In this document: in pieces, positions 16,082-26,917 of the stretch | How the letters are laid out: every line of letters begins with the position of its first letter | Numbering within the stretch: position 1 is the first letter of the stretch | DNA from: Ensifer adhaerens | GTDB taxonomy: Bacteria; Pseudomonadota; Alphaproteobacteria; Rhizobiales; Rhizobiaceae | Direction of reading: 5' to 3' | Assembly (NCBI RefSeq): GCF_000697965.2 | Contig: NZ_CP015881.1 | Coordinates: 434,001 to 498,000, forward strand | Length of the DNA stretch: 64,000 nucleotides | The notes under the pieces: generated by a model | The model's input: the letters and a program-made list of their open reading frames with translations, nothing else | Database searches by the model: none | Told to the model about the DNA's origin: nothing | Translations under genes and position numbers: made by a program

Positions 16082-17443
16082 TCAGGCGGCGTCGATCGCT
16101 TGTCTGAGATCGGCGATGATGTCGTCCGAATGTTCGATGCCGATCGAAAGCCTGACATAGCCGGGCGTCACCCCGGTCTTTAGCTGGTCGATCTCCGACA
16201 GCTGCGAGTGCGTCGTCGTGGCTGGATGGATGGCCAGTGAGCGGGCGTCGCCGATATTGGCGACATGGTAGAGCAGTTTCAGCCCGTCGATGAAACGCCG
16301 GCCCGCCTCGCGACCGTCCGTCAGCTCGAAGCCCACGAGCGCGCCATAGTGGCCGTTCAGCAGATATTTCCCGCCGCGTGCCTTCGCCTCGCCATCCTGG
16401 AACTTCGGGAAGATCACCCGCGCCACCTTCGGGTGGGTGCGGAGGAACTCGGCCACCTTGATGGCATTCTCGTTGTGCTGTCGGATCCGGAGCGGCAGCG
16501 TTTCCAGACCCTGGATGAACTGGAATGCGTTTAGCGGGCTGATCGCGGCGCCGAGGTCGCGCAACAGCACCGCGCGGGCGCGCAGGATATAGGGATGAAA
16601 CGCGATCGCGGCCGCTTTTTCGAGCCAGGTCTTGCCCTGGTAGCTCGGGTCAGGCTCGTGCAGGTTCGGATGGCGCGCCTCATGCTCGTGCCAGGGAAAC
16701 TGGCCGCTGTCGATGATCGCGCCGCCGATCGAGGTACCGTGCCCGCCGATGTATTTTGTCGTCGAATAGACGACTACCGCAGCGCCGTGGTCGAAGGGCC
16801 GGATCGTCAGCGGGGCCGCCGTGTTGTCGACGATCAGCGGAATGCCGAAGCGCTTGCCGATCTCGGCGACCTCGGCGATCGGAAAGACTTCGAGCTTCGG
16901 ATTCGGCAGGGACTCGGCATAGTAGGCACGTGTCCGGTCGTCCGTCGCCCGGGCAAACGCCTCGGGATCAGCCGCATCGACGAAACGAACCTCGATGCCG
17001 AAACTTTTCAGGGTGGCGGCAAACAGCGCCCAGGTACCGCCATAAAGGCCGGCGGCGCTGACGACGTTGTCGCCGGAGCGCGCAAGGTTCAGGAGCGCGA
17101 AGGCCGATGCCGCCTGGCCGGAGCCAAGTGCCAGCGCGGCTGCTCCCCCTTCGATCTCCGCCAGCCGCTGCTCAAACGCGTCTTGCGTCGGGTTGGAAAC
17201 GCGGGTGTAGAGATGCCCCGGCGCCTCCAGCGCAAAGAGCTTGTCGGCGCCGTCGGTGCCGGGCAGTTGATAGGAGGTCGTCTGGTAGATCGGCACGGCG
17301 ACGGCGCCGCTTGCCGGATCGAAACGATAGCTGCCGCCGTGGAGCGCCAGCGTTTCGGGATGCAACCGCCCGCCGGCTTCGCGCAGGCCGTTCGGCGTCT
17401 TGATCTCGACTGCCGGTTCTTCCGGCTTCTGATGGATCGTCAT
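16082..17443 (-). CDS. metY: O-acetylhomoserine sulfhydrylase (MetY type), 453 aa
   Basis: PLP enzyme that makes homocysteine or methionine from O-acetylhomoserine and a sulfide or thiol. The N-terminal ETLALHGG and PIYQTTSY, then HLYTRVSNPTQ, are typical. The PLP lysine is Lys230 in YSTTKYIGGHG. The C-terminal DARSLAIHPATTTHSQL is also diagnostic. ATG at 17443 follows AAGGAG. It lies 45 bp downstream of the oxygenase gene on the same strand and is probably cotranscribed, linking the oxygenase to sulfur metabolism. I could not find a SAM-II riboswitch upstream. Confidence 0.93.
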   Translation of the reverse strand: MTIHQKPEEPAVEIKTPNGLREAGGRLHPETLALHGGSYRFDPASGAVAVPIYQTTSYQLPGTDGADKLFALEAPGHLYTRVSNPTQDAFEQRLAEIEGGAAALALGSGQAASAFALLNLARSGDNVVSAAGLYGGTWALFAATLKSFGIEVRFVDAADPEAFARATDDRTRAYYAESLPNPKLEVFPIAEVAEIGKRFGIPLIVDNTAAPLTIRPFDHGAAVVVYSTTKYIGGHGTSIGGAIIDSGQFPWHEHEARHPNLHEPDPSYQGKTWLEKAAAIAFHPYILRARAVLLRDLGAAISPLNAFQFIQGLETLPLRIRQHNENAIKVAEFLRTHPKVARVIFPKFQDGEAKARGGKYLLNGHYGALVGFELTDGREAGRRFIDGLKLLYHVANIGDARSLAIHPATTTHSQLSEIDQLKTGVTPGYVRLSIGIEHSDDIIADLRQAIDAA

Positions 17444-17488: not shown

Positions 17489-18526
17489 TCAGGCGGGCAC
17501 GGCCGCCTTTGGCTGTTCCAGCAGGTCTGCGTGGTGCGCGGCGGCGACATCGGGGTGCGAGCGCAGCCGGGATTTCAGCACGTTGCGGCCGACCTCGTGG
17601 AAGAGCGGGTTCTGCGGATCCTGGGTGACGCCGCGGACCTCGGCTGCAAGCTGTGGCGGGAGATCGAGCACCGGGATGGTCGAAGCGAGATTGGCGCCGA
17701 GGAAGAAGGCGACCGAGAGCCGATCGCCGCCAGCTGGCGGCGTTACCACCCGGTGGATGTTGGCGAGCAGATAGCCGTTCGATGCCAGTTCCAGGAGTTC
17801 GCCGACATTGATGACGAAGGTGCCGCGCTTCGGCGGTGCGTCGATCCAGCCGCCCTTGCCGTCGTCGACCTGCAGTCCGCCGACCACGTCCTGCAACAGG
17901 ATGGTGACGAAGCCGCCGTCCTTGTGGGCGCCGACGCCCTGATCGCTTTCGGTCTTGTCGCGGCCGGGATAGCGGATGATCTTCAGCAACTGGTTGGGGC
18001 CATCGCGATAGATCGGCCCGAAGACATCGGGCTTCTGCCCGAGCGCTTCGGAGAAAATCTCGATCAGCCGGATGCCGAGCCCGGTGACGGCTTCGATATA
18101 GCCAAGGATCGCAGGCTTCAGTTCCGGCAAGGCGTCCGGAAACTGGTTCGGGCCGACAAGCCGCTTCCACGGCGCATCGCCGGACGCGATATTGAGGCTC
18201 TGGCGCTCGGGACCAAAGTCGACCTGTTCGCGCCAGTCCTGCGTGCCGCGCGTGTATTCGAGGCCGGCGCGATTGTAGCCGCGGAAGTGCGGCGACTTGC
18301 GCATCTCGATCGCCAGCTTGTCGTCCTCCGGCAGCGCGAAGAAGCGGCGCGAAAGCGAGAGAATGCCGTCGATTTCGTCCTGCGGGATCCCGTGGCCCTC
18401 GAGATAAAAGAAGCCCACCGAGCGGGCAACGCTGCGCAACTCGTCGAGCGCTGCGGCCCGCTCGGGGTGGCCCGCCGCAAAGCGCGAAAGGTCAAGGACG
18501 GGCAGGGTTGGATTTGTCTGGCTCAA
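17489..18526 (-). CDS. 2-oxoglutarate/Fe(II) oxygenase, isopenicillin-N-synthase-like, 345 aa
   Basis: Non-haem iron dioxygenase of the IPNS-like superfamily. The N-terminal DIOX_N region includes GFFYLEGHGI. Iron ligands are seen as GAHKDGG (HxD) and the distal His in NIHRVV. RLSVAFF supplies the 2OG-binding R-x-S. A TTG at 18526 follows AAAGGGAG and gives the usual length; the longer GTG start at 18589 adds a Pro/Arg-rich tail with no family match. It is cotranscribed with metY. The substrate is unknown; an organosulfur compound is plausible from context only. Confidence 0.87.
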   Translation of the reverse strand: MSQTNPTLPVLDLSRFAAGHPERAAALDELRSVARSVGFFYLEGHGIPQDEIDGILSLSRRFFALPEDDKLAIEMRKSPHFRGYNRAGLEYTRGTQDWREQVDFGPERQSLNIASGDAPWKRLVGPNQFPDALPELKPAILGYIEAVTGLGIRLIEIFSEALGQKPDVFGPIYRDGPNQLLKIIRYPGRDKTESDQGVGAHKDGGFVTILLQDVVGGLQVDDGKGGWIDAPPKRGTFVINVGELLELASNGYLLANIHRVVTPPAGGDRLSVAFFLGANLASTIPVLDLPPQLAAEVRGVTQDPQNPLFHEVGRNVLKSRLRSHPDVAAAHHADLLEQPKAAVPA

Positions 18527-18962
18527 GCTGGTCTCCCTTTGTCGTTCAGGCGGTGGGCCAGTCGATAAGGGCCCTGCGCCGGTTCGCACATGATGGGAGA
18601 AGCCTAACCGGAGGTGGCTCGCTCACTCAATATTGTCTATGGAAATTATGGACTAAATTTCAACGAAAGCGTGAAGCGCGCTTTCGAACGGAACTGGTTT
18701 GCGGGGAATATCCGTCCCGGTCGTCTGTTTTACGGATTCCCTGAGCTGTCTCATGCGTGCGAGAGCAATGATCGTTCGGCGACGAAATCCGCTTGCGGCG
18801 AAGCGCGGGGAGCGGCAGACGCTAGGCCTAACAACGACCAAAACCCCGCTTCGCCTTCGGCCAAACGGGGCTATTTTCGTGTCATCGCTCAATCGCAAAG
18901 CCACCGGTCCGCGCAGGCGGACCAATCGCGGGATGACGGCAATCCCAAAAGCGGCGTGGAAC
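18527..18962. other. 436-bp region between the oxygenase start and the RiPP-like operon end
   Basis: Holds the oxygenase-metY promoter (AT-rich stretch near 18630-18665 on the minus strand) and a hairpin terminator at 18844-18870. Nothing that looks like a protein gene. A small RNA ending at the same hairpin on the plus strand is conceivable because the hairpin is followed by TATTTT there too. Confidence 0.5.
18844..18870 (-). terminator. Rho-independent terminator of the YcaO/TfuA operon
   Basis: Minus strand: CCCCGTTTGGCC, loop GAA, GGCGAAGCGGGG, followed by TTTT. The stem is about 12 pairs with one G-G mismatch and one wobble. It lies 92 bp past the stop codon of the 78-aa gene. The inverse strand also ends in TATTTT, so it may be bidirectional. 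Confidence 0.75.
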
Positions 18963-19199
18963 TCAGCAGCGGCCGAGGCTCGGGCGCGTCAGCAACTCGT
19001 TGGTCAGATGCGCTCTCTGGCTGCCGCAGTCCTCGGCCTCCTTGAGCAGCGATGCGAGCGCGAGTTCGAGACAGTATTGCACGCCTTCGACGTTGAGGGT
19101 CTTGGCGGAGTCGCGCGCATAGGTGACAAGACGAGCCAGTGCCAAGAGCTCCTTTTCCTTGTCTTCCGGTTCTACCGGCACAGCAAATGAAGATAGCAT
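18963..19199 (-). CDS. Small helical protein at the end of the YcaO/TfuA operon, 78 aa
   Basis: Not recognised as a named family. The predicted protein is mostly helical (ELLALARLVTYARDSAKTL; CLELALASLLKEAED) with two Cys outside the helices' core. The ATG at 19199 follows TGGGGA; an upstream in-frame extension to 19316 lacks an RBS. It is 119 bp after TfuA and lies before the operon terminator, so it is probably cotranscribed. It could be an accessory, immunity or regulatory protein, or unrelated; the sequence does not decide. Confidence 0.6.
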   Translation of the reverse strand: MLSSFAVPVEPEDKEKELLALARLVTYARDSAKTLNVEGVQYCLELALASLLKEAEDCGSQRAHLTNELLTRPSLGRC

Positions 19200-19318
19200 A
19201 ATTTTCCCCAGCTTCCTTTGGATCCGCAGATCCAGCCCACCGTGGCCAATCATAGCGTGACTTCGCGGCATTGCGCGTGACATGAGCGTGACACACGTTG
19301 TATGTGAAAACCACATCC

Positions 19319-20044
19319 TTAAGATGAAGCGTCAGGTTGACCGAACAACCTCTTCCACATGCTGGTAGAATTGAATTTCCAGCCTTGCGATGCAACCGTC
19401 CGTTGGGTTGGCGCGTGTCGCAGTGCGTCCAGTAAATGTCGCGCGTCGATGCCCTTCTGGTCGACATATTCGCTCGCGAGCAGCGCGGTGAGACGGGCGG
19501 GGTCCGTCCCCGCCGGCAGTGCAACGCGCGCGACGATGCCCGCCCAGTTGCGCTCCTTGTAGAACATGGCGGACGCCGTCGCGCCCATCGATGCGATGAG
19601 CGCTGGGTCAAGGGCTTGGGTCTGCGAGAGGCGCTTGAGCGTCGCATCGACGTTGACCAGCGGGAGTGTCAGCGGCAGATAGCCGAGTTCGGCCGGGCCG
19701 TGGATCAGCGCAACGTCGGCGTCGTCCACGCGGGCTCCTTCGGCGTATTGCCGGTAGATCTCGCCAATGCCGACCATGCCGAAGGGCGCGCATTCCACCG
19801 CGCGCAGCGCGCCCATGCTGGCCGCGCCGAAGACCTGCACGCCCAGCGACAGCGCATAGAGGATTTCCTTGTGCCAGACGGGCGCAACATTCTCGAAGTT
19901 GCCGTCGATAAGCCCGATCGCGGTTGCACCGCCCTCAACTGCGCGCAGGACGTCGCCCTGAACGGCAGGCGGGAGGATTAGGACGCTCTTGTCCGCCGCG
20001 TTTCGTGCGTCCGGCAGCGTCGGGCCAACAAAGACAACGTTCAT
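19319..20044 (-). CDS. tfuA: TfuA-like protein, 241 aa
   Basis: TfuA-domain protein, known as the partner of YcaO enzymes in backbone thioamide formation and in the trifolitoxin system. Family features include VFVGPTLPDAR at the N-terminus and the block VQVFGAASMGALRAVE (residues about 69-84), followed by GIGEIYRQY. ATG overlaps the YcaO stop by 4 bp (ATGA), showing translational coupling. In known systems TfuA is thought to help deliver sulfur to the YcaO reaction. No separate sulfur-donor gene is seen beside it. Confidence 0.9.
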   Translation of the reverse strand: MNVVFVGPTLPDARNAADKSVLILPPAVQGDVLRAVEGGATAIGLIDGNFENVAPVWHKEILYALSLGVQVFGAASMGALRAVECAPFGMVGIGEIYRQYAEGARVDDADVALIHGPAELGYLPLTLPLVNVDATLKRLSQTQALDPALIASMGATASAMFYKERNWAGIVARVALPAGTDPARLTALLASEYVDQKGIDARHLLDALRHAPTQRTVASQGWKFNSTSMWKRLFGQPDASS

Positions 20045-21288
20045 CCGGCCTCCAGAGCACGGGCGAGCGCGCGTTCTGCGAAGCGACGCTTGCGCAGGCC
20101 GTCGGGATTCTCGAGGGCCGGAACGATGACCTTGACCACCGAGAAAGGTGCAACGCCTTCCATCAGCGGAACGACGACAACCGTCCGGATGCCAGCCGCT
20201 TCAAGCCGCAGCAGTACGTAATCGAGCAGCGCCTGAGGCCCGGCCGGGGCATCGGGGGCCGCCACGCTTGTCCGGAGCGGCACGGCGGCAAACAGGCCTC
20301 GCGTTTCCTCGGGAAGGTCGCGGGTGAAGGTTTCCGGAAACACATCGTCGCGGGCGCCGCTGATATAGGTAAGCCGCGACTGGGCGGCCTCGGTCACGGC
20401 ACGGATGGCGGCGCGCCGCGCCACGGGGTGGGCACCGTGGCCGATCGTGACGTCGTGATAACGCGGATGCCTGGCCGAGAGAATGCCCGCTTCGGCGAGG
20501 GTTGCGGCATAACAGGGGATGCCGATGTCGCTGGTCATGTCGAACAGGCGCAACTCCAGACCTGAAGAGGCGATCCGTTCCGTAAGGGCATCGAGGACAG
20601 GATCCTCGAAACTTCCCGGATCGATGCAGCTTCGGTGCTTGCCGTTCAGCGGCAGCATTCGCCACAGCGTTTCGGCGTCGCGCTCGATGCGCTCGAGCAA
20701 GCCGTGCAGGGTCGCCTCGACCTCGGTGTTGCCCGAGGCCAGGCCATCGGAGGACTGCCAGTAACGATAACCGACGATCGTCCGGTCGAGGATTGTCGCT
20801 TCGCGCGGAACCCAGGTGGTTGCGCCGTCAAAGAGGTCGAAGCCACGGAGCCAGTCGATCGTTTCGTCGTCCTGAAGGTCCGCTTGCCCCGCCGAGATGA
20901 GCCCCGGCAGATGCAGCGTTCGACCGCCCGTTTCGGAAAGAGCCCGGCTGGTGGCCGTTCTTGTCGGGGCCGACGGCGCGCAGGCCACTGCCCGCTCGAT
21001 CGCCTCCATGGCCGCCGAAACCTTGGCGTCAACGTCGGTGATGCCTTTTCCCTGGTTGATGACGATCGATCGGGCGTTGGGCGACACGGCGCTCCACACG
21101 GGAATGCCGAGCCGGTCGAGGCCGGTCAGCCGCGCAAGCCGGGTGACGCCGAGCGCCGGCAGGAATGCCTCGATCCGCCGGAACGTTTCTTCTGGCGGGC
21201 AGGCGCGATCGCTGTAGGAAAGCGGCTCGGCCGCCGGACGGCTGGAATGCTCGTCCGACGGCCGGCCAGTTTCAGCGGCTTGTGCCAC
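20041..21288 (-). CDS. YcaO-domain cyclodehydratase/thioamidase, about 415 aa
   Basis: ATP-dependent peptide-backbone-modifying enzyme. The YcaO nucleotide/Mg motifs are present: SAAMEAIER (residues 91-99, pattern SxxxExxER), ExxxxxxxE at Glu191/Glu199 within EATLHGLLER, and QSRLTYISGARDD (QxxR-type). The frame is open to 21486, but that part overlaps the peptide gene in another frame. A GTG at 21288, 7 bp after the peptide stop, gives a normal family length. It sits between the peptide and TfuA genes, so the peptide is the probable substrate. No E1-like partner or SagB dehydrogenase is present, which favours thioamidation over azole formation. Confidence 0.9.
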   Translation of the reverse strand: MAQAAETGRPSDEHSSRPAAEPLSYSDRACPPEETFRRIEAFLPALGVTRLARLTGLDRLGIPVWSAVSPNARSIVINQGKGITDVDAKVSAAMEAIERAVACAPSAPTRTATSRALSETGGRTLHLPGLISAGQADLQDDETIDWLRGFDLFDGATTWVPREATILDRTIVGYRYWQSSDGLASGNTEVEATLHGLLERIERDAETLWRMLPLNGKHRSCIDPGSFEDPVLDALTERIASSGLELRLFDMTSDIGIPCYAATLAEAGILSARHPRYHDVTIGHGAHPVARRAAIRAVTEAAQSRLTYISGARDDVFPETFTRDLPEETRGLFAAVPLRTSVAAPDAPAGPQALLDYVLLRLEAAGIRTVVVVPLMEGVAPFSVVKVIVPALENPDGLRKRRFAERALARALEAG

Positions 21289-21295
21289 GCGTGGA

Positions 21296-21517
21296 CTAGC
21301 CGTCCATGAACCCGCCGGAAACGGAGCCGGACGAGGCCGCAACCACGGCGAGATTGACGCCCTTGTGCACCATTGCCCCGCTGTTGTTACGCAGGTCGTT
21401 GGCCGCAGCCAGCGGCCCCTGCGTCGGCGTTGCGATCTGCGAGACCGTGCCCGCATCCAGATCCGCAACCCAAAGCCGGTTGTCACCCGCCAAACCGATC
21501 ACCACTACTTTTGCCAT
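21296..21517 (-). CDS. Candidate RiPP precursor peptide, 73 aa
   Basis: Short protein beginning MAKVVVIGLAGDNRLWVADL and ending SSGSVSGGFMDG. A strong RBS (AGGAGG) sits 6 bp before the ATG at 21517. It lies 32 bp after the BTAD regulator and 7 bp before YcaO. The N-terminal half could be a leader (charged, WVADLDAGTV). The C-terminal half has Asn/Gly/Ser/Ala-rich composition (NDLRNNSGAM; AASSGSVSGG). There is no Cys, so thiazoles are impossible, whereas backbone thioamides or Ser/Thr azolines are possible. No leader cleavage site (double Gly before a core) stands out. I know of no characterised peptide that resembles it. Confidence 0.75.
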   Translation of the reverse strand: MAKVVVIGLAGDNRLWVADLDAGTVSQIATPTQGPLAAANDLRNNSGAMVHKGVNLAVVAASSGSVSGGFMDG

Positions 21518-21549
21518 TTTCCCCTCCTGGCCGTTGCTGATGTGAGAAA

Positions 21550-23421
21550 TCAGAAGCCCGCCTTGCGCAGGCCCTCGCAATAATGAACGCGCTGCCATTC
21601 TTCCCTAAAGGGAACGATGGTCATCCACTTGTCGAGATCAAAGTCCGGATGCACGTCGAAAGTCTTACGGACGAACTGGCGCGCTTTTTTCCGGTTGCCG
21701 AGCATGCCCCAACTTGCCGCCGACAGCCGGTCGGCAGGGGTCGGATCGCGCATGCGCTCGATATAGGCGATCGCCTGCTCATACTGGCCAAGCGAGTAAC
21801 TGGCGCCGGCCGCGGTCCAGAAATATTCGTCCGGCGCAATCGGGTTGAGATCGATTGCTGCCTGGATCTTGCGCAGGCCACCCTCGGGGCGCGAAGCTTG
21901 CACCAGCGTGTCGGCGTAGCTCGCGATCACGTTGGCGTGCTGAGGGCTCAGCGCCTCCGCCTTGTCATGGTATTCCATGCTCTCGTCGAACTGTCTCAAG
22001 TAGAGCTTGACGACGCCAAGCTCGCGATAGCCCGTTGCCAGCGTGTCGTCGGCCACCACCGCATCGCGCGCATGCCGTTCCGCAAGCGCCAGCAGCTCTG
22101 CGTCGCCGCGGGCTGTCAGCAGCCACTCGAAAAAATAGCTGCGGGCGAGCCCGCTCATCGCCGGCGCAAAGCCGGAGTTCTCATAGAGCGACTGGCGGAA
22201 ACTCTTGCGCGCGCGCCGCAGCTCCGGAAGGTTGAGCTGCTTGAGATAGCGCTGTCCGAGCAGGAAGCTGCGGTAGGAGCCGACATTGGTCTCGTAGGTC
22301 TGGCGATGGGTCTCGTTACGCTCCACCTGGTTGGCGATCGCCAGTGCGATCTGGCGGGCAATTTCCCGCCGTGAGGCCATCAGCCCGTCGCCATCGAGAT
22401 TGAAACGGTCGGCCCAGATCACTTCGTCATTGCCAAAGAAGATCAGTTGCGTGAAGAGCGTCAGCCGGCTGCCTTCGTCGGTCAGGCGCGTGTCGAGAAT
22501 GTAGCTGATGGCGTGCTTCTGGTAGGTGCTGGCCTTGTCTGCCTGCAGGCTGATCTGTGCGGCCGTGTAGGGCGCGATCACCGAAACCGAGCGAAGCGCG
22601 CAAAGCCCGATCGTCACGTCCTCGATCAGGGCGCTTGCAAATTGTGTTGCCGGACTGTCGACCGCGCCGTTGTTCGGCGGCAGAAGGACGACGCGCGGCG
22701 GGCGCGAGTCGGCAGCCGACTCCGACGTCGGCGCGATTATCGTCGAGATCGACCGCAATTCCGGCCTGCTGATCGCGATCGCGCCGCCGCCATTCGAGAC
22801 AGCCCGCGCTTCCAGATGGTAGCCCTCAAGCTGAAACGCCTGGGTCAGGATCTTGCGCACGTCCTCGTCGAGCGGGTTGCGCTCGAGCAGCCGGGTCGCT
22901 GCCGCCTTGACCAGCTTGCGATGATTGTTCGTCGCCTCCGCTGCCGCGAGAAGCAGGCTTTCGCGCAGCAGCGCCATATGCTCGCCACGCTGCCGCTCGA
23001 TCCAGCCATGCAGCGCCTGCCCCTGGGACTTCAAGTCCTTGAGGAAGTCTTCCTGGAAGGTTTCGACGGCCCACTGGAGACGGGAAAGTGGATCGCCCGC
23101 CTCACGCCCGATGGTATCGAGGTCGCTCTTGAGCCGGCTGGCGTCGAGGCGCACGGCCGACGGCGAGAAACACAGGAAGTGACAGCCGAGTTCTTCCTGG
23201 CGCGCGCTGATGCGGGAGATCGTCTTGCGCAGATTGACGAAGGCCTGGCTCGGGACGATCTCGTCCCAAAGGAGCTTGGCGACATCGTTTCTGGACTTCT
23301 CGCTATGGCCGCCGACGATCAGATGACACAGGATCAGCAGACCCTTTTCGGGAAACGCTACCTCACGCCCGCCGTTATCGACGAGCCGCAAGCGCCCGAG
23401 GGTCTGCAGTCTGAATGTCAT
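21550..23421 (-). CDS. BTAD-type transcriptional regulator with TPR region, 623 aa
   Basis: SARP/AfsR-like head: a winged-helix DNA-binding domain (about residues 1-95, LQTLGRLRLVDNGGREV) and a bacterial transcriptional activation domain (about 100-215). A middle region resembling adenylate-cyclase-associated domains follows (VVLLPPNNGAVDSPATQFA; ALIEDVTIGLCALRSVSVI). TPR-like helices fill the C-terminal half (about 390-600). No membrane segment is seen. It directly precedes the peptide gene by 32 bp on the same strand, so it is a likely pathway-specific activator or sensor of the YcaO/TfuA operon. Confidence 0.85.
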   Translation of the reverse strand: MTFRLQTLGRLRLVDNGGREVAFPEKGLLILCHLIVGGHSEKSRNDVAKLLWDEIVPSQAFVNLRKTISRISARQEELGCHFLCFSPSAVRLDASRLKSDLDTIGREAGDPLSRLQWAVETFQEDFLKDLKSQGQALHGWIERQRGEHMALLRESLLLAAAEATNNHRKLVKAAATRLLERNPLDEDVRKILTQAFQLEGYHLEARAVSNGGGAIAISRPELRSISTIIAPTSESAADSRPPRVVLLPPNNGAVDSPATQFASALIEDVTIGLCALRSVSVIAPYTAAQISLQADKASTYQKHAISYILDTRLTDEGSRLTLFTQLIFFGNDEVIWADRFNLDGDGLMASRREIARQIALAIANQVERNETHRQTYETNVGSYRSFLLGQRYLKQLNLPELRRARKSFRQSLYENSGFAPAMSGLARSYFFEWLLTARGDAELLALAERHARDAVVADDTLATGYRELGVVKLYLRQFDESMEYHDKAEALSPQHANVIASYADTLVQASRPEGGLRKIQAAIDLNPIAPDEYFWTAAGASYSLGQYEQAIAYIERMRDPTPADRLSAASWGMLGNRKKARQFVRKTFDVHPDFDLDKWMTIVPFREEWQRVHYCEGLRKAGF

Positions 23422-23448
23422 CCGGTCATTCCTGTCGGGCGCGGGTGC

Positions 23449-23898
23449 TTAGCCGTGCAGGTCCTGAGCGTGGCTCGTGCTTGAGCGGACGGTCTCGGTC
23501 TCCGGCGTCTGGGCAACGGCGGCGACCAGCGAGATGATCTTCTTGCGCAGCACCGGGTCCGTGATCTTCAGGAAAGCGCGGTTGAGCGCGATCCCTTCCT
23601 TCGACGAAACGAAGGACGAGATTTCGCTCGGCTCGCGTGTTGTGTCGCCGTTGCGTGCGCCGGCAGGGTCTTCACCCTCCTGGAAGAAGAAGCTCGGGTG
23701 CACGCCGAGGATATCGGCGATCGCCTGCAGACGGCTCGCGCCGATGCGGTTGGTGCCTTTTTCGTACTTCTGTACCTGCTGGAATGTGATCCCGAGACCG
23801 TCGGCCAGCTTCTCCTGGCTCAGTCCGGCCATCAACCGACGCATCCTGACGCGGGAACCGACAAAGACATCGATCTGGCTGGGGGCTTTCGTGTTCAC
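23449..23898 (-). CDS. XRE-family transcriptional regulator, 149 aa
   Basis: Cro/C1-type HTH at about residues 12-70 (VGSRVRMRRLMAGLSQEKLA; GITFQQVQKYEKGTNRI). A longer acidic C-terminal tail follows, as in common rhizobial XRE regulators. The GTG start at 23898 follows GCGGAGGA. It is 27 bp ahead of the BTAD regulator and may head the six-gene operon. The 12-bp palindrome at 23931-23942, just upstream, could be its own operator. Confidence 0.88.
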   Translation of the reverse strand: MNTKAPSQIDVFVGSRVRMRRLMAGLSQEKLADGLGITFQQVQKYEKGTNRIGASRLQAIADILGVHPSFFFQEGEDPAGARNGDTTREPSEISSFVSSKEGIALNRAFLKITDPVLRKKIISLVAAVAQTPETETVRSSTSHAQDLHG

Positions 23899-24199: not shown

Positions 24200-24216
24200 G
24201 TTACTGTTACGTACTT
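24200..24216 (+). promoter_or_regulatory. 17-bp shared operator-like site, copy 5 (SH3 protein)
   Basis: Reads GTTACTGTTACGTACTT, identical to copy 4, 109 bp before the SH3-protein ATG. A third GTTAC lies 12 bp further upstream at 24188-24192, so half-sites recur with 6- and 12-bp period. Confidence 0.75.
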
Positions 24217-24325
24217 GCGCTGTGGCGATGGGCAAAGATGTCTATGGCTCAATCAGTTCCGGTGCCAGCTTCGGCTTCAGTCGTTGCGGGCGCGGGTCGG
24301 CCGCCCGGGATCTCGGAGAACCGTA

Positions 24326-26917
24326 ATGCGCAGACTGACACTCGCCTTCACCCTCCTCGCGATTGCCGCGGTTCCGGCGCAGGCCGGGCCGGCAACGACG
24401 AGCGCCTCAGTCAATTTCCGGGAAGGACCGGGAACCGGCTTCAACAGTCTGGGGACGATCGCCGAGGGAACCGAGGTCGATGTCAAGGAATGCGACGATG
24501 CGGGCACCTGGTGCGCGGTAAGCTTCAATGGCCAGAACGGCTTCGTGAGCGGCAAGTACCTGAACGATGCCGATCCCAAGGGGCTCGGTTGGCCGCGCGC
24601 CTACAAGACCGATAGTGGCGCGACCATCACGCTCTATCAGCCGCAGATCAACGCCTGGAAGGATTTCACCGAACTCGATGCGCTGATCGCCGCCGAATAC
24701 AAGCAGTCCGACGACGCCAAGCCGATCTTCGGCGTGGTTGGCGTTACCGGCAAGACCGATGCCGACAGCGCCTCCGGCCAGGTCGTCGTTTCTGATATCA
24801 AGATGACCGAGATCAACTTCTCCGTCCTCGACCGGAAGGAACTGGCGGATCTGACGCTCGAGGTCGGCAAGCTGATGCCGGTCGGGACGATCACCATTTC
24901 GGAGGACAAGCTGACGGCGAGCCTCGCCGACTACCAGCGGCTCGGCAATGTCGAGGGGTTGAAGGCCGACGCGCCGCCGATCTTTATCAGCAAGAAGCCG
25001 GCGATCCTGGTGCAGACCGACGGCAAGGCCGTGTTTGCCCCGGTCAAGGGCGTCGAGGGGCTCTCCTTCACGGTCAACACCAATTGGGATCTGTTCAAGG
25101 TCGAGGCTGACGCCACTTATTACCTGCGCAACGACAAGTCATGGCTGCAATCGAAGGATCTCGCCTCGGGATGGCAGTCCGCCTCGTCGCTTCCCGACAT
25201 ACTCAGCAAACTGCCGGACGACGACAACTGGAAGGATGCCAAGGCGGCGATCCCGCCGCAGGCGGACAAGGTGATCGTGCCCGACGTGATCTATTCGGAC
25301 AAGCCGTCGGAACTGCTCGCCTTCGACGGTGAGCCGAAACTCGAACAGGTGCCGGGCACCGGTCTCAAGGTTGCGACCAACACCGAGAGCGACGCCTTTT
25401 ACCGTGACGCTGACTCAAGCTGGTACATCCTCGTATCCGGTCGCTGGTTCGCGAGCACCGCGCTCGACGGCCCCTGGACCTTCGCGACGCCCAAGCTGCC
25501 GCAGGACTTCCAGAACATTCCGCAGGATGCCGCCTATTACATGGTGCGCGCGTCCGTTCCCGGTACCTCCGAAAACGCAGAGGCGCGGCTGAAGGCGAGC
25601 ATCCCCGAAAAGGCGCGTGTCTCGCTCGATGGCTCCGTCACGGTGGACGTCGCCTATAGCGGCGACCCGAAGTTCGAAACGATCGACGGGACGTCCCTGA
25701 CCTACGCGGTCAACACCAACGAGACCGTCATCAAGGTCGGCGACAAGTATTTCGTGCTGAAGGACGGGGTCTGGTTCGTCGGCGATGCACCGACCGGGCC
25801 GTTCGCTGTGGCAAAGGCGGTGCCGGACGAGATCTATACCATCCCGCCGTCGTCGCCGATCTACAATGCCACCTATGTGCGCATCTACGATACCGAGCCC
25901 GACGCGGTCTGGTTCGGCTATACGATGGGTTACCTGGGTGCCTATCTCGCCTGGGACACCTTCGTCTACGGCACCGGCTGGTACTATGACGACTATTGGG
26001 ATTACGGCTGGGCCGGTGGCGGTTACTGGCCCTATTATCCACGCCCGGTAACCTATGGCGTCGGCGCCTTCTATAATCCGGCCATCGGTACGTTCGGCCG
26101 CTATGGATATGCCTACGGGCCCTATCGCGGCATTGCTGCCGGTGCGGCCTACAATCCGCGCACGGGCACCTATGTTCGCGGCGTGGCCGGCTACGGACCG
26201 AACGGAGACCGCGGCTTCGTCGCCGCCTACAATCCACGCACAGGCAACGCGGCGATCGCTCGCGGCGGACATAACGTCTACGGAAGCTGGGGCACCGCGT
26301 CCGTCAAGCACGGATCCGATTTTGCCCGCATCAGCGGCGGCTCGACCGCCAATGGCGCCGGCGTCAATTGGCGCACGTCGGACGGGAACCATGGCTTTGT
26401 CGCCGGCGGCAAGGGCGGCGACGTCTATGCCGGCCGTGACGGAAACGTGTATCGTCGTGACGACGGACGATGGCAAAAGCATACGCCCGACGGTTGGCAG
26501 CCAGTCCAGAAGCCTTTGATCCAGGATAGGACCAAGGCGGGCGAGCAATTCTCCGCCAATCATCCGGATGCAGCGGAGAACATCAACCAGAGGATCGAGA
26601 CGCGGCAGCAGGCCGGCCAAGGTGTGGCGCAGGCTGCCCGCGAGCGTGCCCCCGACCATCTGGCGATCGACAATATCGGCCGGCAGCTCGGCAACCAGCG
26701 CAGCTTCGAGCGGCAGTCGTTCGATCAGCGGCCGCTGAATTTCCCGACCGGTGGCGGTGGCGGCTTTGACCGCCCGGGCGGCTTCGGGGGCGGCGGCTTT
26801 GACGGCGGCGGTTTCCAGGGTGGTGGTGGATTTGGCGGTGGGGGTGGCTTCCATGGTGGAGGCGGTTTCCACGGAGGCGGTGGGTTCCACGGTGGCGGTG
26901 GCTTCCGTCGCCGCTGA
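24326..26917 (+). CDS. Exported SH3-domain protein with Gly/Tyr-rich tail, 863 aa
   Basis: Signal peptide (residues 1-20, LAFTLLAIAAVPAQA) is followed by a bacterial SH3 domain (about 22-80, VNFREGPGTGFNSLGTI), which usually binds cell wall. The middle part repeats beta-rich segments (about 230-530). A Tyr/Trp/Gly-rich region follows (about 560-660, with two AAYNPRTG repeats), and the C-terminus is Gly-rich with hexads GGGGFH. The in-frame upstream extension to 24215 lacks a signal peptide start, so the ATG at 24326 after GGAG is used. It heads the plus-strand group with MscS and MltF. Function unknown; an envelope-structural role is inferred. Confidence 0.83.
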   Translation: MRRLTLAFTLLAIAAVPAQAGPATTSASVNFREGPGTGFNSLGTIAEGTEVDVKECDDAGTWCAVSFNGQNGFVSGKYLNDADPKGLGWPRAYKTDSGATITLYQPQINAWKDFTELDALIAAEYKQSDDAKPIFGVVGVTGKTDADSASGQVVVSDIKMTEINFSVLDRKELADLTLEVGKLMPVGTITISEDKLTASLADYQRLGNVEGLKADAPPIFISKKPAILVQTDGKAVFAPVKGVEGLSFTVNTNWDLFKVEADATYYLRNDKSWLQSKDLASGWQSASSLPDILSKLPDDDNWKDAKAAIPPQADKVIVPDVIYSDKPSELLAFDGEPKLEQVPGTGLKVATNTESDAFYRDADSSWYILVSGRWFASTALDGPWTFATPKLPQDFQNIPQDAAYYMVRASVPGTSENAEARLKASIPEKARVSLDGSVTVDVAYSGDPKFETIDGTSLTYAVNTNETVIKVGDKYFVLKDGVWFVGDAPTGPFAVAKAVPDEIYTIPPSSPIYNATYVRIYDTEPDAVWFGYTMGYLGAYLAWDTFVYGTGWYYDDYWDYGWAGGGYWPYYPRPVTYGVGAFYNPAIGTFGRYGYAYGPYRGIAAGAAYNPRTGTYVRGVAGYGPNGDRGFVAAYNPRTGNAAIARGGHNVYGSWGTASVKHGSDFARISGGSTANGAGVNWRTSDGNHGFVAGGKGGDVYAGRDGNVYRRDDGRWQKHTPDGWQPVQKPLIQDRTKAGEQFSANHPDAAENINQRIETRQQAGQGVAQAARERAPDHLAIDNIGRQLGNQRSFERQSFDQRPLNFPTGGGGGFDRPGGFGGGGFDGGGFQGGGGFGGGGGFHGGGGFHGGGGFHGGGGFRRR
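26839..26910 (+). repeat. Tandem 18-bp repeats encoding Gly-rich hexads
   Basis: About four degenerate copies of an 18-bp unit of the form GGTGGTTTCCAYGGWGGN encode (GGGGFH)n at the end of the SH3 protein. Such repeats are prone to copy-number change in-frame. Confidence 0.65.

Follow-up and report, generated by a model that had tools for sequence, protein, structure and literature searches.

Whether a short, cysteine-free peptide encoded directly ahead of a ycaO–tfuA gene pair is the substrate of that pair, and what its product might then do, is the question raised by a six-gene operon of Ensifer adhaerens (host genome of 7.27 Mb in 3 contigs). The operon lies on the minus strand of a 64,000-nucleotide stretch of contig NZ_CP015881.1 (positions 434,001 to 498,000; "the window" hereafter denotes this whole stretch), and encodes, in order, an XRE-family regulator, a BTAD/TPR regulator, the peptide, YcaO, TfuA, and a protein of 78 amino acids (aa). 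A first-pass annotation had read it as a minimal, undescribed system for a ribosomally synthesized and post-translationally modified peptide (RiPP), with the peptide as the substrate of YcaO and TfuA, and this proposal is well supported by the distribution of peptide and enzymes across genomes, by tandemly repeated cores, and by enzymes of the thioamide type. Based on these sequence comparisons, we consider it probable that the operon encodes a RiPP precursor whose C-terminal unit is thioamidated by the YcaO and TfuA of the operon, most likely at Gly69 of SGGFMDG.

Peptide and enzymes were found in the same genomes. Across 394 Rhizobiaceae genomes, the peptide was detected in 78, TfuA in 123, and the YcaO clade (membership threshold E ≤ 1e-60) in 81. 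The YcaO clade was present in 78/78 peptide genomes versus 3/316 others, leaving no genome with the peptide and without the clade, and TfuA was present in 78/78 peptide genomes versus 45/316 others. The 3 YcaO-only genomes carry a sister cassette made of a regulator, a 42-aa-type peptide, YcaO, and TfuA. In terms of taxonomic spread, 20 of the 109 Rhizobiaceae genera sampled have the peptide, as do 33 of 397 Hyphomicrobiales genomes, including seven families besides Rhizobiaceae. At the 20 Hyphomicrobiales loci that were retrieved, the regulator was always upstream (20/20) and YcaO was downstream in 18, the remaining two being at contig ends. Only the genome of the window itself was matched in a class-wide draw of 385 genomes, i.e., the family was unseen outside Hyphomicrobiales at this sensitivity.

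The 73-aa peptide is encoded at 21296..21517 (minus strand). This open reading frame (ORF) is a real coding gene, because a strong ribosome-binding site (AGGAGGGG) precedes its ATG, because differences among seven Ensifer-type copies are biased toward the third codon position (124/92/478 for positions 1/2/3), and because changed codons are predominantly synonymous (447 versus 173 non-synonymous; both sets of counts are summed over all pairs, which are not independent). No Pfam or NCBIfam family matched the peptide. A protein search yielded 36 relatives (E ≤ 0.1) and a profile search 164, of which the best 120 were listed; among the matches listed, the named relatives are nearly all "hypothetical protein". 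Sequence and profile searches combined with a survey of neighboring genes had been suggested in the first-pass annotation, and when run they placed the regulator always 5′ of the peptide, and YcaO 3′ of it at most of the sampled but fewer than half of the named loci. The peptide is indeed free of Cys in the window, and Cys occurs in only 2 of 109 unique relatives. In alignments, the first half is conserved (MAKVVVIGxxGDxxLWVADLDAGTV), the middle variable, and the tail short. An AlphaFold2 model based on a 65-row alignment comprises strands at residues 4–8, 15–19, and 24–28 and a helix at residues 34–46, with predicted local distance difference test (pLDDT) scores, averaged over 10-residue blocks, of 85–92 for residues 1–50, declining to 56 toward the C-terminus. 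Judged by this model, in which the N-terminus is made up of three strands and one helix, and by hydrophobicity, the peptide has no apparent Sec-type signal; its most hydrophobic 12-residue segment begins at residue 56 (mean 1.5). The peptide is likely a RiPP precursor, with a leader that is predicted to fold and spans approximately residues 1–50 and a short C-terminal tail that ends in S67-G68-G69-F70-M71-D72-G73.

The tail is likely the core peptide, as in some relatives it is repeated in tandem in the way expected of RiPP cores. C-terminal tandem repeats were found in 24 of 137 unique precursors, with periods of 7–28 residues, each equalled by 0/500 shuffles. The proposed core SGGFMDG (residues 67–73; 21296..21319 including the stop codon, minus strand) is present once in the window peptide, whereas Shinella-type relatives carry two or three copies (SGGFMDA-SGGFMDP-SGGFMDK). 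Different tails are repeated in further lineages, including GGYMDx (×3), FSGKLEx (×4), GLHEx (xGLHEx, ×3), and SGGFFEx (×4), with SDAASHIFYG among the further repeat letters, and long arrays are found in other families, e.g., RSDAASHIFYGVDRAVAADT. In the set built on Rhizobiaceae, 101 of 109 tails contain G-x-x-[D/E], compared to a mean of 28.9 and a maximum of 43 in shuffles, a comparison that is description more than test since the relatives share descent. Ser precedes the Gly in 53 of these 101 cores. G69 is the sole residue of positions 58–73 kept in at least 90% of the rows of the 65-row alignment, and is likely the site of thioamidation as predicted from the sequence. McrA is thioamidated at a Gly preceding Phe (LGFF-G-FDLQDQ; PMC5589413), and other residues can also carry a thioamide, including Pro in thiovarsolin (PMC6511847) and Asn in the Std product (PMC13174530). 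At some loci (L033, L036, L088, L143, L144, L150, and L151), two precursor genes stand in tandem ahead of YcaO, and the second precursor of L143 and L144 carries a 13-residue unit in arrays, e.g., SDPSDRAFSFDGR.

The adjacent ycaO and tfuA genes both score over their Pfam cut-offs: YcaO (415 aa; 20041..21288, minus strand) matches PF02624 at 211 bits, and TfuA (241 aa; 19319..20044, minus strand) matches PF07812 at 138 bits. The start of YcaO is uncertain, with no clear ribosome-binding site ahead of the GTG at 21288 and an alignment to its closest solved relative that begins at residue 26. This relative is MJ1094 (6pe3, E 1.3e-34), followed at a distance by LynD (8.4e-16) and TruD (5e-15), which we take to be azoline enzymes, and the closest solved structure to TfuA is 6xp8 (E 1.1e-23). 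The best NCBIfam models of both proteins are those of McrA glycine thioamidation (TIGR03266 and NF033432). Thioamide chemistry is thus our best guess for this pair, because its nearest relatives are of the thioglycine type, with the pair itself placed outside of the McrA equivalog. The same genome also encodes a second, divergent YcaO–TfuA pair (C1:405296-407210, i.e., L140:9297-11211; Pfam YcaO 164 bits), beside which no precursor of the 73-aa peptide family was found. Its neighbors are a 403-aa protein with an HEMGH (HExxH-type) motif and no Pfam match, next to TfuA, and a 995-aa cyclase/AAA protein, next to YcaO.

Next to the peptide gene itself, the enzymes are not always present. When considering 37 named loci and 80 loci sampled from the Rhizobiaceae draw, YcaO follows the peptide in 17/37 and 71/80, respectively, and the remainder (20/37 and 9/80, or 29/117 together) are orphan regulator–peptide pairs. 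TfuA lies beyond YcaO in 16/17 named and 65/71 sampled YcaO-bearing loci; in L035, YcaO is present with no TfuA beside it. All 21 named genomes searched (20 with an orphan pair, plus that of L035) nevertheless encode TfuA. Peptide homologs lacking YcaO and TfuA, which the first-pass annotation had regarded as evidence against its proposal, therefore exist locally but not genome-wide, as TfuA is found in all 78 sampled and 21 named genomes. Among the 20 orphan-pair genomes, 17 have this type of locus elsewhere: in 5 it is intact, and in 12 it is an XRE–YcaO–TfuA locus that lacks regulator and peptide (L141, L142, L205–L213, and L218). Remnants of the regulator can still be seen at L141, L142, and L205. 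Rhizobium johnstonii 3841, for example, has both an intact locus (L216) and an orphan pair (L014). The XRE-family regulator (149 aa; 23449..23898, minus strand; Pfam HTH_3, 54.8 bits) is thus part of an enzyme module (XRE–YcaO–TfuA, in most cases joined by the 78-aa gene) that remains after the loss of regulator and peptide. The 78-aa protein (18963..19199, minus strand) has no Pfam or NCBIfam match; its gene travels with XRE, YcaO, and TfuA, relatives scored by a loose home-made model being found in 15/17 named and 51/71 sampled YcaO-bearing loci and in 11/12 split loci. Overall, regulator plus peptide and XRE plus YcaO, TfuA, and the 78-aa gene behave as two units of the same genome that are not always neighbors, and since both are kept in one genome without adjacency, the enzymes can be argued to work in trans.

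Three related arrangements were observed alongside these loci. In a sister cassette (L217, L219, L222, L224, and L227–L229, with the same gene order in L220 and L221), a related regulator, a small peptide, YcaO, and TfuA stand in this order, and XRE is on the opposite strand. The peptide is 41–45 aa long (longer with an earlier start), ends in NATSNIVHALKFR or NATSNIVHAVRFR or a close variant, and is a different precursor type served by a regulator and enzymes of the same kind. The third cassette type (L145, L156, and L158) includes between regulator and YcaO a protein of 142–158 aa, starting with MSSHFFIVGKKGFGVLFIRTTPLR in L145, that may be distantly related to the leader. Finally, L022:9423-12673 (relatives L031 and L037) combines an orphan pair with a divergent TfuA, then a class-V aminotransferase, a metallo-beta-lactamase-fold protein, and a TauE-type sulfite exporter, pointing to a possible link to sulfur metabolism (among these three loci, Pfam was run on L022).

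Several observations weigh against thioamidation of this peptide by these enzymes. On the genomic side, scoring in most genomes was restricted to the best few first-look candidates (up to 15 per genome for the peptide, 11 for TfuA, and 4 for YcaO), which makes the absences soft, and the co-occurrence is inflated by shared descent. Six YcaO matches in the scan of 394 genomes also contain one in-frame stop. For 3 of the 20 orphan-pair genomes, the only other YcaO–TfuA locus found is of the sister 41-aa-peptide type, with a TfuA divergent from the pair, and in 6/7 peptide genomes of genus g46 TfuA is encoded away from YcaO rather than downstream of it. On the side of the proposed chemistry, 8 of the 109 tails do not include GxxD/E, and relatives in other families (SHYYYPSR and SERAFSF types) have no Gly, so that Gly is not a universal site. 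The McrA equivalog cut-offs are not reached by YcaO or TfuA (199.2/365 and 159.9/235.2 bits), and no sulfur-carrier gene is found among the six genes.

As for the role of the product, the fixed partner of the peptide is the regulator, not YcaO, a pairing that the first-pass annotation had overlooked, as it had the repeated C-terminal unit as the likely core. The regulator gene is directly 5′ of the peptide gene on the same strand in 37/37 named and 80/80 sampled loci, with a median gap of ~30 bp and a maximum of 152 across both sets, and the two form an invariant unit; the regulator is shortened or split in L111, L119, and L120. The window regulator (623 aa; 21550..23421, minus strand) is predicted to consist of an N-terminal winged helix with BTAD, a CadC-like sensor fold, and a TPR solenoid. 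In a fold search, its model (mean pLDDT 84.7) matched TPR solenoids at E 7.5e-8 and the sensor domain of CadC at E 1.7e-6; the fold matches listed (best 50 PDB rows) comprise generic TPR proteins along with this CadC domain. The label of BTAD–TPR regulator initially given to this protein rests on its homologs and, for TPR, on the fold match, and not on Pfam in the window protein, for which TPR models are just under the cut-off (best 23.9 of 25 bits); in 45 homologs, PF03704 BTAD was detected in 2, Trans_reg_C in 3, and TPR_19 in 35 at E ≤ 0.01.

At every related locus examined, the gene directly ahead of the peptide gene encodes this predicted sensor-type regulator, so that the product may be a signal to the cell. 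In a bolder and less likely reading, the thioamidated peptide would be an intracellular or re-imported signal, and BTAD/TPR regulator and precursor would form a receptor–peptide pair kept even with the YcaO/TfuA maturase at another locus, one maturase serving several such pairs in trans across Hyphomicrobiales. Counting against this reading, the regulator does not stand out in a comparison of distances: across 68 loci, peptide distances correlate at 0.70 with the regulator and 0.69 with YcaO. A mirror-tree argument for co-evolution of peptide and regulator was dropped, as partial correlations were too weak to carry it (regulator 0.25, YcaO 0.15, TfuA −0.02, XRE 0.07).

Alternatively, the modified peptide could be a secreted antirhizobial or other bioactive RiPP, the regulators only controlling its production, a possibility that we regard as doubtful. 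Rhizobia make narrow-range azol(in)e-modified antibiotics (PMC10128002, PMC9670871), and antibiotic and cytotoxic activities are reported for known thioamidated RiPPs (PMC8120280). In addition, an ABC-type ATPase gene, so judged from its sequence, has relatives in the flanks of 26 of the 71 sampled YcaO-bearing loci (ORFs ≥120 aa, BLAST E 1e-15, 60 most widespread ORFs), so that genes nearby may provide export; this ATPase and a Cys/Met-metabolism enzyme were the only two groups to emerge from these ORFs. However, these ATPases belong to a very common superfamily, no other of these widespread flank families exceeds 12/71 loci, and orphan regulator–peptide pairs persist alone. Cys/Met-metabolism enzymes, found in 12 loci, are relatives of the pyridoxal phosphate (PLP) enzyme at 16082–17443 of the window. 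No conserved dedicated exporter, protease, or sulfur carrier was found among the most widespread flank families, from which short or variable genes could escape.

It is rather unlikely that the product is instead a small modified protein in which folded leader and thioamidated tail are kept together, as in McrA or uL16. This would be consistent with the predicted fold and better conservation of the first ~50 residues and with the lack of a protease gene among the six, but the many-copy repeat expansions are a better fit for multi-core precursors, and thiovarsolin is trimmed even though it has no dedicated protease (PMC6511847). Less probable still, the peptide might be only a regulatory partner (a small anti-activator) of the BTAD/TPR protein, with YcaO and TfuA modifying something else: the two genes are adjacent at every named and sampled locus, yet many of these have no YcaO after the peptide, but the complete absence of sampled peptide genomes without the YcaO clade and the RiPP-like repeated tails both argue for a precursor. 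Lastly, an azoline, an oxazoline at Ser67, or a macroamidine in place of the thioamide is very unlikely, since even though other YcaO enzymes make azolines (PMC5589413) and amidines (PMC8442711) and about half of the GxxD/E cores have Ser before Gly, TfuA follows YcaO at nearly all YcaO-bearing loci, the closest enzymes are of the thioglycine type, and the six genes include no E1-like or dehydrogenase gene.

Under thioamidation, the predicted folded leader, with its three strands and helix, would be recognized by YcaO and TfuA and hold the precursor on them. By analogy with characterized relatives, YcaO would activate a backbone amide of the tail at the expense of ATP, and TfuA would release sulfide from a thiocarboxylated carrier, a supply route stated for such systems (PMC13063428). 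The product would gain +15.98 Da per core unit, and its leader might be trimmed by host peptidases rather than a dedicated protease, as for thiovarsolin. In genomes that encode peptide and enzymes apart from each other, modification would occur in trans. In what is the least certain step, the product may then have the neighboring BTAD/TPR regulator as its intracellular target.

The organization of the window operon matches its initial description, in ORFs as well as spacings. The six minus-strand ORFs extend from 23898 to 18963, with gaps of 27 bp between XRE and BTAD/TPR regulator, 32 bp between regulator and peptide, and 7 bp between peptide and YcaO, an overlap of 4 bases between YcaO and TfuA, and a gap of 119 bp between TfuA and the 78-aa ORF. 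The operon also ends, as had been proposed, at one strong Rho-independent terminator (18836..18880, minus strand), a 3′ hairpin with a fold energy of −22.5 kcal/mol (z −3.94; 0/200 shuffles equally stable). A simple consensus scan did not list this terminator on the minus strand and returned no sigma-70-like promoter in the region. E1-like, dehydrogenase, and protease genes, initially reported as missing, are absent from the six genes based on Pfam, and for E1-like genes on NCBIfam as well. Just past the terminator, the window encodes the Cys/Met-metabolism PLP enzyme (16082–17443) and a 2-oxoglutarate (2OG)-Fe(II) oxygenase (17489–18589), and on the other side the divergent neighbor is a 900-aa ORF that combines an SH3_3 domain with a Gly-rich tail (24215–26917).

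Each of the known systems resembles this operon only in part. Thioviridamide-type thioamitides have a core Cys for their aminovinyl-methylcysteine (AviMeCys) ring. This Cys is missing from the window peptide, in agreement with the first-pass view that the peptide is not thioviridamide-type. Thiovarsolin (varA, varY, varT, and varO; Streptomyces varsoviensis) shares the combination of precursor, YcaO, and TfuA as a working minimum, a core that, depending on the family member, is unrepeated or present in up to five repeats, and a cluster without a protease gene, but belongs to another phylum and has an APR/GPR core with the thioamide between Pro and Arg, unlike SGGFMDG (PMC6511847). Its heme oxygenase VarO, which is dispensable for thiovarsolin B (PMC6511847), has no counterpart Pfam among the six genes of the window. 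The available text of that report mentions no pairing with a BTAD/TPR regulator. The archaeal YcaO–TfuA system of McrA thioglycine provides the closest curated models and has Gly then Phe at its site (PMC5589413), as in the window core. Its substrate is an enzyme subunit, whereas the operon encodes a dedicated small precursor and its enzymes stay below the equivalog cut-offs. In the Std cluster (Streptomyces thermodiastaticus), YcaO–TfuA also acts first on a conserved C-terminal precursor motif, but this motif is SNKEWQE, the thioamide is on Asn, and the cluster includes an MNIO with its partner and a peptidase-carbamoyltransferase (PMC13174530). Azoline (thiazole/oxazole-modified microcin, TOMM) peptides rely on an E1-like or ocin-ThiF partner of YcaO (PMC5589413), and neither Pfam nor NCBIfam detected such a partner in the six genes. 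For the regulator–peptide pair, the closest parallel is provided by the RRNPP pairs of Firmicutes, in which the genes for a TPR receptor and a small propeptide are adjacent and the mature peptide is usually the last four to ten residues of the propeptide (PMC10075063). The pairs described here do not appear to be RRNPP members. The regulator is a 623-aa BTAD/CadC-like/TPR protein from another phylum, a modifying enzyme pair is added, and the N-terminal secretion signal of RRNPP propeptides (short basic, then longer hydrophobic) is not evident on the window peptide.

Rhizobial TfuA clusters have been surveyed previously, with more than 500 TfuA-related Rhizobium clusters counted by Malit et al. 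2021 (PMC8120280), and members of the window precursor family are probably included in the supplementary tables of that study. It describes Sinorhizobium clusters with a heme oxygenase, unlike the window operon, and its main Results do not appear to describe the precursor family, its repeats, the regulator pairing, or the split loci (PMC8120280). Our literature search, which mostly excluded subscription papers, yielded no description of the precursor family and no phenotype. Hence, YcaO–TfuA RiPPs are known, and the leader family, the cores, the regulator pairing, and the cis/trans split appear to be new.

If confirmed, this family would add a widespread class to the handful of YcaO–TfuA-modified RiPP classes, for which one report names four in addition to its own (PMC13174530). 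It would also offer a natural series of single- and multi-core precursors, along with natural cis/trans separations of enzyme and substrate. The fixed link between precursor and predicted sensor-type regulator would allow the role of thioamide peptides in Gram-negative bacteria to be tested directly, in rhizobia that are tractable. Should the product be a signal, Alphaproteobacteria would have an RRNPP-like peptide-signaling architecture whose ligand bears a thioamide in its backbone.

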